DNA of 39,785 nt, from NCBI GenBank assembly GCA_016788065.1, contig JAEUTI010000022.1, positions 1 to 39,785 on the forward strand, written 5' to 3'. The translations under genes were made by a program, and so were the position numbers. The notes beneath the pieces were generated by a model that worked only from the letters and a program-made list of their open reading frames with translations, was not told the origin of the DNA and did no database searches. Below are positions 6,376-39,155 of this stretch, piece by piece (positions within the stretch are counted from its first letter, which is position 1; every line of letters starts with the position of its first letter). Source of the stretch: Bacteroidia bacterium. GTDB taxonomy: Bacteria > Bacteroidota > Bacteroidia > AKYH767-A > OLB10.

Positions 6376-6391
6376 GCGGACCCGTAGGATT
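6376..6391. other. Left attachment site (attL) of the island
   Basis: GCGGACCCGTAGG at 6376-6388 is identical to 39143-39155, which contains the 3' end of tRNA-Arg(ACG). The next bases (ATT) match again after a one-base gap. The copy lies 108 bp before the integrase start. Site-specific integration into a tRNA 3' end by a tyrosine recombinase leaves exactly this arrangement. Confidence 0.8.
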
Positions 6392-33370: not shown

Positions 33371-33550
33371 TTATTTCTCCCTTTTTAAGCTGAACGCTTC
33401 AAATTCCGCCTTATTTTCATGCTGTGTCACAAAAACAAAAGGTGAAATTGTTTTCCGCCGTGCAGTCTCAATAATGATTGATTCACCACTCTTTAATTCA
33501 TGCCGAAATTTATCAAACTTGTGCTTCGGTGCTTGCAGCTGCTGATTCAT
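33371..33550 (-). CDS. Small overlapping ORF, 59 aa
   Basis: An ATG at 33550 within the 3' end of the 646-aa gene opens a 59-codon frame ending at TAA 33371-33373. The sequence is charged and protein-like: MNQQLQAPKHKFDKFRHELK, SGESIIIETARRKTISPFVF and VTQHENKAEFEAFSLKREK. The 38-bp overlap with the gene before it suggests coupled translation. It is too short for simple ORF calling. Function unknown; a small partner of the 646-aa protein is possible. Confidence 0.55.
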   Translation of the reverse strand: MNQQLQAPKHKFDKFRHELKSGESIIIETARRKTISPFVFVTQHENKAEFEAFSLKREK

Positions 33551-35453
33551 GATTTATAAATTTATAAGATGAAATTCTTAAAATAATCAAAAGCAACCCT
33601 ATTGCATCCATAATGTCATATTCATTGGAGTCTATCAACCCATGAGCTGTTCTATGACGTAAATTCCAACCGGGTTTTTCAGTTAATATGTACTTGAAAA
33701 AATATTTATCATCATCCGGAAAACCTTTTACTGAAGATAGTTCAGAAAATATGTCATCAATATTTTTTTCCATTACTACATCGGTGGTTGTCCGCTGGCC
33801 AATAGGTTTAAATGTAGAAATTCCCATTCTTTCACATAAGAATCTCAAAACATATTCAATTTTAAGTGTTAACGAATCAACAACTAAAATAATATTATCA
33901 GAAAACCGCTGTTCGGAATTAATCAAAGCTAATTCATCAAATAGAATTTTTAGTCCAGGCTTTATGTTCTCCAATGGTACAACAGTAACTTTATACCCAT
34001 TGTACATTCTATTAATTGGCTCATTTAGCCAACTTTTACTTAAAGATTCCATAACTGCAGTTAAGTTTAGCTTTCCTACATTGAATGCTTCGTAAATGAA
34101 AACAGCAACTTGTTGCATTGCCAGCTGGAATGTCAAGCTATATGAATCCAGTAAATTTTTCTCTTCAATTTCTGTTGCACTATAATATCGCTTTACTGTA
34201 TTTCCAAATTTATCCATTACGCTGGATGGAAGCATGGCAAAAAAGGCTGATTCAGATTTCAATATCTCAACATCTTTTCTAACATCGTCAAGCGGCTTGA
34301 GCATGGGAAATTCCGCTAAAAATGCTACAATACCTTCTGGTGGTAATTCGGTAATCGTGTCAGTTATTCTTTTTCTAACTGCCTGAACATAATCATCAGG
34401 CATTGCTGTTTTAGTCGTACCAAGAGCAATTTTTCCTCGTAGTTCATTATATCGGTTTTCCAGTCTTGAAGATTCATCTGGAGTACTACTCATAGAGTAA
34501 TATTTCATTGCTTTTTCAATATATGAAATAGCCGATAATCGATTGTCTGTGGCAGCATTTTCACCCAATTCCTCATAAGCTCGTGCAATTCTTAACAACC
34601 AATCTTCAGTTGCCGTAACACCTTTTTTAATTAACCTATCACACATTATGAACAATGAAACACTTGCATCCAATTTATTTCCTTTGTGTGTAGCACAAAT
34701 ATCATTCACCTTATTAAACAATAAAGTAAAATCGAACTTATCCTTATAAAAATTAAATCTGGTTAAGATTAGGTTGATGAAATCGATTGCATAGCGCGTT
34801 GCATAGAGATTGTCGTTTTCAATACTTAGAAAATTACGAAAAATATAATCGGTCATTTTATCTAACAAATCGCGAAACCGGCCTTCAGATTTATTTGATT
34901 CAATTATGGCTATTGCTGATTCAAGTTTTCTAAAATAAAAAGTAAAACACTTATCATTTCCACTTTGAAAAACTTGATAATGGTTTTGACTCAACGAAAA
35001 TAATATAGATGCCAATTCATATTTGAAATCATTGTGCCTATTGTCCCCGGATAAATATAGTACTAAACCATACTCTGACTTGAAATATAAATTTGATGAT
35101 TTGTTATAGCGGGATTGAATATATTCAAAATCTGAATCAACGTATTTTGAAATATCAGGCCAAATCAAGGGTATGATATCACCGTTATCTAAAGTTTGGT
35201 CGCCTACCAACATTGGTCCTAATCCTTCAATTTTTTCACGACTTACACCTTTTGAATCATCATTAACCATTCTAAACGACTTATTAAACGCAAATACTTC
35301 TCTGTTTAAATTGCTCAACCCAATTAAATCTGCGCGGTCCGCAGCACGTAATTCATCCGATAATTGCTGAAAATATTTATTTACCTCGTTTTGATTAGAA
35401 TCGTCCCACTCAAGTGTATCAAATTCTTGGAGTCTTAGTTGAAATAAATCCAT
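33513..35453 (-). CDS. Unknown 646-aa protein with HEPN-like RxxxxH motif (DUF4209-like)
   Basis: A large soluble protein, mostly alpha-helical in look (TPR-like stretches such as LRIARAYEELGENAATDNRLSAISYIEKAMKYY). Near the C-terminus, WNLRHRTAHGL contains R-x4-H (about Arg599-His604), followed by a long hydrophobic helix (GLLLIILRISSYKF). This pattern resembles the C-terminal HEPN-like part of DUF4209 and Abi-type proteins, where it can be the RNase site. It follows the pAgo gene by 95 bp on the same strand, so it may be part of the same defence operon. The family call is tentative; no SPARTA partner of this kind is known to me. Confidence 0.6.
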   Translation of the reverse strand: MDLFQLRLQEFDTLEWDDSNQNEVNKYFQQLSDELRAADRADLIGLSNLNREVFAFNKSFRMVNDDSKGVSREKIEGLGPMLVGDQTLDNGDIIPLIWPDISKYVDSDFEYIQSRYNKSSNLYFKSEYGLVLYLSGDNRHNDFKYELASILFSLSQNHYQVFQSGNDKCFTFYFRKLESAIAIIESNKSEGRFRDLLDKMTDYIFRNFLSIENDNLYATRYAIDFINLILTRFNFYKDKFDFTLLFNKVNDICATHKGNKLDASVSLFIMCDRLIKKGVTATEDWLLRIARAYEELGENAATDNRLSAISYIEKAMKYYSMSSTPDESSRLENRYNELRGKIALGTTKTAMPDDYVQAVRKRITDTITELPPEGIVAFLAEFPMLKPLDDVRKDVEILKSESAFFAMLPSSVMDKFGNTVKRYYSATEIEEKNLLDSYSLTFQLAMQQVAVFIYEAFNVGKLNLTAVMESLSKSWLNEPINRMYNGYKVTVVPLENIKPGLKILFDELALINSEQRFSDNIILVVDSLTLKIEYVLRFLCERMGISTFKPIGQRTTTDVVMEKNIDDIFSELSSVKGFPDDDKYFFKYILTEKPGWNLRHRTAHGLIDSNEYDIMDAIGLLLIILRISSYKFINHESAAASTEAQV

Positions 35454-35548
35454 ATGATAAAAACTTTAAAATTATACCACCTTTTCTTTATGAAGAATTT
35501 CCATTCCGGTTAAAAAGTTTCCATTAATTTCCATTTAAGAATAGTTAG

Positions 35549-38591: not shown

Positions 38592-38918
38592 TTAAAATCC
38601 CATTGGTTTACGTGGTTCCGACGGTGGTTGCATGCCATCCATGTAAATCTTTTTCGACTTATATGTTAATTTGAAATCACAATATCTTCCGAAGCCGCTT
38701 TCACCATTAATAGTAACAAAGTCGAATTTCTCCATGTATTCGAGTAGTGGCATTATTGTATCCTGGTGCGGTTTCGGACCAGTTAACGACTTCCAGATAG
38801 CTAATGGGTCGTGTTCCGCTTCAGGTCCATTCAAATAAGCCTGGTGAAGCAATTCACTCATGAGATACTTGACTTCCGGGTCATTGATGTCAAGGACTGT
38901 TTTGGAGGGGTGTGACAT
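38592..38918 (-). CDS. Small protein, 108 aa, possibly winged-helix
   Basis: A soluble protein reading KYLMSELLHQAYL, then IMPLLEYMEKFDFVTIN, GRYCDFKLTYKSKKIYM. The order helix-helix-strand-strand with LTYKSKK resembles a small winged-helix fold (LTxxG wing), which is inference. It starts 45 bp upstream of the TIR-APAZ gene on the same strand, so it could regulate the SPARTA operon or be part of it. No family recognised. Confidence 0.6.
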   Translation of the reverse strand: MSHPSKTVLDINDPEVKYLMSELLHQAYLNGPEAEHDPLAIWKSLTGPKPHQDTIMPLLEYMEKFDFVTINGESGFGRYCDFKLTYKSKKIYMDGMQPPSEPRKPMGF

Positions 38919-39142: not shown

Positions 39143-39155
39143 GCGGACCCGTAGG
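39143..39155. other. Right attachment site (attR) in the tRNA-Arg 3' end
   Basis: GCGGACCCGTAGG, identical to 6376-6388. The two copies are 32,767 bp apart in the same orientation, which gives the size of the integrated element. Confidence 0.78.

Follow-up and report, generated by a model that had tools for sequence, protein, structure and literature searches.

Bacterial SPARTA systems, as published, consist of a TIR-APAZ/pAgo heterodimer that assembles into a tetramer of heterodimers (PMC11156904), and the locus described here raises the question whether such a system may include further components. The stretch of DNA that we analyzed (the window) is a contig of 39,785 nucleotides from a Bacteroidia bacterium (JAEUTI010000022.1 of assembly GCA_016788065.1). 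In it, a gene for a 646-aa protein lies on the same strand as the pAgo gene and 95 bp after it, and a 59-aa frame overlaps the end of this gene by 38 bp (Table 1). An earlier, sequence-only reading described this layout and an RHRTAH sequence near the C-terminus of the larger protein, both in agreement with the ORF list, and proposed that the two frames are extra SPARTA components, the larger one a second effector that cuts RNA. We assign a probability of roughly 80% to a different answer, that the 646-aa protein acts independently, as a defense effector of the DUF4209/PDC-S39 kind that probably consists of one protein and neighbors SPARTA as co-cargo of a genomic island.

Table 1. Location of features in the window and of partner genes at related loci (locus coordinates are given after the locus name)
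Feature	Position	Strand	Remarks
Left 13-bp att repeat	6376..6388	+	Identical to 39143-39155; sister-species homology breaks at 6388
Tyrosine-recombinase-type integrase, 489 aa	6496..7965	+	Pfam Arm-DNA-bind_5 above cut-off, Phage_int_SAM_5 just below
59-aa frame	33371..33550	-	ORF list; 38-bp overlap (33513-33550) with 3' end of DUF4209 gene
646-aa ORF, DUF4209 gene	33513..35453	-	ORF list
HEPN motif codons, R599-H-R-T-A-H604-G	33639..33659	-	Translation; R, A and H invariant in 26 sequences
pAgo-DUF4209 gap, 95 bp	35454..35548	-	Three ATGGAAA(T/C)T copies
Short pAgo of SPARTA, 503 aa	35549..37060	-	PADLOC pAgo_I, E 4e-185; neighboring system
TIR-APAZ of SPARTA, 496 aa	37057..38547	-	PADLOC Aga_TIR-PNTD1-PNTD2, E 2e-114; Pfam TIR_2; neighboring system
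Right 13-bp att repeat	39143..39155	+	3' end of tRNA-Arg(ACG)
DUF4209/~90-aa/PIN gene trios	L039 2212-4806; L040 8866-11439; L041 1643-4219; L042 2516-5098; L043 8986-11577; L044 9001-11580		
~160-194-aa protein genes	L034 10722-11306; L035 10839-11360; L045 10842-11357; L055 5591-6103; and others		

The neighboring pair had been named SPARTA in the earlier reading, and the PADLOC profiles agree: the E-values of 2e-114 for TIR-APAZ and 4e-185 for pAgo establish the pair as real. It is complete, its two genes overlap by 4 bp, and it stands directly upstream of the 646-aa gene. The gap between pAgo and this gene has no reported terminator-like hairpin. Three copies of ATGGAAA(T/C)T lie within 39 bp of the gap (35496-35534) and could be an operator or promoter element. 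An unknown 108-aa ORF (38592-38918) precedes TIR-APAZ on the shared strand and has no relatives in the loci compared.

In a sister species (G001; L158), tRNA-Arg and the genes that flank it are conserved at ~94-96% identity, but window positions 6389-39142 are absent, the homology stopping at 6388 and resuming at 39143, the 3' end of the tRNA. This empty site, the 13-bp repeats and the integrase gene just inside the left end identify an island of ~32.8 kb (6376-39155) integrated in tRNA-Arg. The island carries metal-efflux genes, and its right end holds SPARTA, the DUF4209 gene and a serine-recombinase gene. The juxtaposition of SPARTA and DUF4209 is thus explained by this mobile island, which carries the two together at one of its ends.

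That the 646-aa ORF is a gene is certain, as 25 other sequences align over its length. It matches Pfam DUF4209 (PF13910) at residues 533-625 with 24.2 bits, against a gathering score of 22.3 (E 3.5e-5). PADLOC PDC-S39, a candidate system predicted in that database, gives a tentative match with an E-value of 1.5e-12; its two models both match the C-terminal domain, but the best stretch takes in no more than positions 485-587 of 595, roughly the final 105 residues of the models. The 26 sequences of the alignment all match PDC-S39 as well. HEPN RNases are marked by an Rx4-6H motif, in which a polar residue follows the arginine, and by an Ex3[KR] located upstream of it (Anantharaman et al. 2013, PMC3710099). 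The window protein has both, the former within NLRHRTAHG (RHRTAH being residues 599-604) and the latter as E533/R537, and R599, A603, H604, E533 and R537 are invariant in the 26-sequence alignment. No match was obtained in the NCBIfam search, no APAZ, TIR or pAgo domain was detected by Pfam, PADLOC and NCBIfam profiles, and searching the sequences of the PDB with a profile of the family returned chance-level matches only. The protein is similar to the TPR-fused ‘C6orf70’ HEPN class, which overlaps DUF4209 and occurs in operons related to restriction-modification (R-M) (Anantharaman et al. 2013, PMC3710099), in having a C-terminal HEPN domain with Rx4H and ExxxR behind a TPR-like helical region; it differs in its weak Pfam match and in a SPARTA neighborhood unseen at the other loci examined. 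The literature that we searched held no activity measurement for any DUF4209 protein, PDC-S39 being just listed in one P. aeruginosa strain (PMC11878078).

The full-length AlphaFold2 model (pLDDT 82) has a helical-repeat N-terminal half (helices ~106-401) followed by a separate C-terminal domain (~426-628). TPR/HEAT-like proteins and designed repeat proteins are the structures that match the N-terminal half, with Z ~10-12, values that may mean only a common arrangement. Modeled alone, the C-terminal domain reached a pLDDT of 86 and a pTM of 0.83. With Foldseek alone, neither model had a significant match in the PDB, and the HEPN match emerged on realignment: the eleven best realigned matches are all HEPN-type or HEPN-like entries (Z 6.5-7.9), including E. 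coli RnlA (7.9), HEPN-MNT (7.2), Csm6 (7.0), YutE (6.8), AF0298 (6.6) and Dfer_2879. Unrelated bundles, such as seven-helix ones, rank below these by a modest margin (Z 6.4 and lower), and a Z of ~8 is not high for a domain built of helices, so that the fold call leans on the sequence match as well. Predicted fold and sequence taken together settle the C-terminal domain as HEPN, so that the earlier reading was right on the HEPN/DUF4209 identity, and make the protein a predicted RNase. The nearest solved structures, RnlA of RNase LS, HEPN-MNT toxins and Csm6, share the HEPN RNase site with the 646-aa protein; however, no sequence similarity to them was detected, their N-terminal or partner domains differ, and no RnlB, MNT or CARF partner was seen at the locus.

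The family suggests a most likely mode of action. The N-terminal helical-repeat domain would sense an infection signal or a partner, and the C-terminal HEPN domain would act as a metal-independent RNase, with Arg599 and His604 helped by Glu533 and Arg537. Once released, this RNase may cut cellular or phage RNA, which could lead to dormancy or abortive infection.

Is the HEPN gene inherited together with SPARTA? In profile searches, neither pAgo nor TIR-APAZ was found near DUF4209 at any of 39 other DUF4209 loci, for which up to 9 kb per side was available (less at contig ends) and a few of which may represent one genome twice. Conversely, DUF4209 was found near pAgo at none of 37 other pAgo loci; this set includes the second SPARTA of the window's own genome and six plasmid-borne loci among the closest, and a clear TIR-APAZ is directly adjacent in 13. 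In a sample of 395 genomes from the phylum, the pAgo family occurs in 22 and DUF4209 in 10, both being present only in the genome of the window; outside that genome, chance alone would give about 0.5 genomes with both, so that this sample by itself is weak and the comparison of loci is the stronger result. Same-strand genes close to the 3' end of pAgo are found at other SPARTA loci too (gaps of 3-184 bp). Comparison of five such downstream proteins revealed neither similarity among them nor a recurrent third gene. Because these close genes are mutually unrelated, adjacency to pAgo means little. At the second SPARTA of the same genome (L068, contig 96, 7649-13178), a gene for an 879-aa AAA_15/AAA_21 ATPase follows 17 bp on, and this ATPase shows no similarity to what follows SPARTA at the other loci that were compared.

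Relatives of the 646-aa protein along most of its length are present on five Hymenobacter plasmids (27-31% identity) and, by an alignment-based scan, in 26 GTDB contigs, mostly of Bacteroidota; DUF4209 fragments or full copies occur in nine further genomes of the phylum sample. Scanning GTDB and IMG/VR contigs with single-sequence patterns gave no relatives, nor did a search of phage records. BREX, MmeI and other defense genes adjoin several of the relatives. Six loci (L039-L044) have a chain of three overlapping genes, for DUF4209, a ~90-aa protein and a ~132-aa PIN-domain protein in this order (Pfam PIN E 5e-10 in L043; PIN frame split in L040), which resembles a VapBC-like pair with a HEPN effector attached. 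In about 15 loci, from Hymenobacter and several other genomes, a ~160-194-aa protein, in most copies with a WDSYGA-like motif, is encoded directly after DUF4209, with spacings from an 8-bp overlap to a 30-bp gap; two copies searched had no Pfam family above cut-off, and in some loci a further gene of ~125 aa follows. On the DUF4209 tree the partner types are clustered, and among the labeled rows a single origin would account for each. The window protein has neither type of partner. It forms a lone long, deep branch, at best 34% identical to its relatives, and its placement inside the PIN-linked clade was not supported.

The 59-aa frame stands where the ~90-aa gene of the relatives would start, with an overlap of 38 bp compared with about 20 bp there. 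When the bases of the region are shuffled, an ORF of such length starting within ~60 nt of the DUF4209 stop appears in 3.5% of cases. The codon score of the frame itself, 0.105, lies in the coding range but is reached by 5 of 54 spurious ORFs. No relatives beyond chance-level scores were found in plasmids, 100 related genomes or the loci compared. Homology to the ~90-aa partner was rejected, the profile score being 0.1 bits and profile-profile comparison giving a similar outcome. The frame is possibly a gene, though not clearly more than a chance ORF, and none of these results speaks for its proposed role as an extra component.

The idea that the HEPN protein is a third component of SPARTA, a second RNA-cutting effector released upon recognition of guide RNA and target DNA, draws on the shared strand, on the 95-bp gap without a terminator-like hairpin, and on a HEPN RNase being a plausible effector. 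Against it stand the absence of any co-occurrence in 39 plus 37 loci, the second SPARTA of the same genome without a HEPN gene, the published two-protein composition of SPARTA, and the close same-strand genes after pAgo at other SPARTA loci, mutually unrelated where compared. By the refuting condition that the earlier reading itself had set, absence of the family near pAgo loci elsewhere, it is largely refuted as a conserved system, and we consider it very unlikely here. A narrower version supposes that the HEPN gene has become part of the SPARTA transcription unit and is regulated jointly with SPARTA or triggered by it, as a lineage-specific Argonaute system combining NADase and RNase; to this we give a very slim chance. 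Two observations count against full independence: the same strand and the 95-bp gap would allow read-through from the SPARTA operon, and the sampled relatives are 34% identical or less, so that closer ones beside pAgo could lie outside the sample. At the protein level, the two systems probably work separately.

Two further explanations concern the HEPN gene itself. It could belong to a toxin-antitoxin-like operon in which the HEPN toxin has its partner in the 59-aa frame, by now diverged or truncated, and the PIN gene has been lost. The six relatives with overlapping ~90-aa and PIN genes, at a position matching that of the 59-aa frame, are in favor of such an origin, but the frame bears no resemblance to the ~90-aa family, a grouping of the protein within the PIN-linked clade is not supported, and a tblastn search of the window for a PIN gene or its remnant gave chance-level matches only; we regard this explanation as unlikely. 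The gene could otherwise be an inactive or decaying passenger of the island without present function, as some of its relatives are broken or partial (L033, L135-L138). That is highly improbable, since the 646-codon frame is intact and all four active-site residues are kept at only ~33% identity, which points to long purifying selection.

The tempting but unsupported view of an extended SPARTA can therefore be set aside, and the gene assigned to the DUF4209/HEPN kind. The more useful lead from the survey is the clade-specific partners of DUF4209, either the ~90-aa protein with a PIN toxin or the ~180-aa WDSYGA protein, which suggest systems of several genes in places where PADLOC has a PDC-S series candidate. 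At a further locus (L046, 7415-8908), a protein with TPR and an LA2681-type HEPN domain is encoded 44 bp upstream of a DUF4209 HEPN gene, placing two HEPN proteins next to each other.
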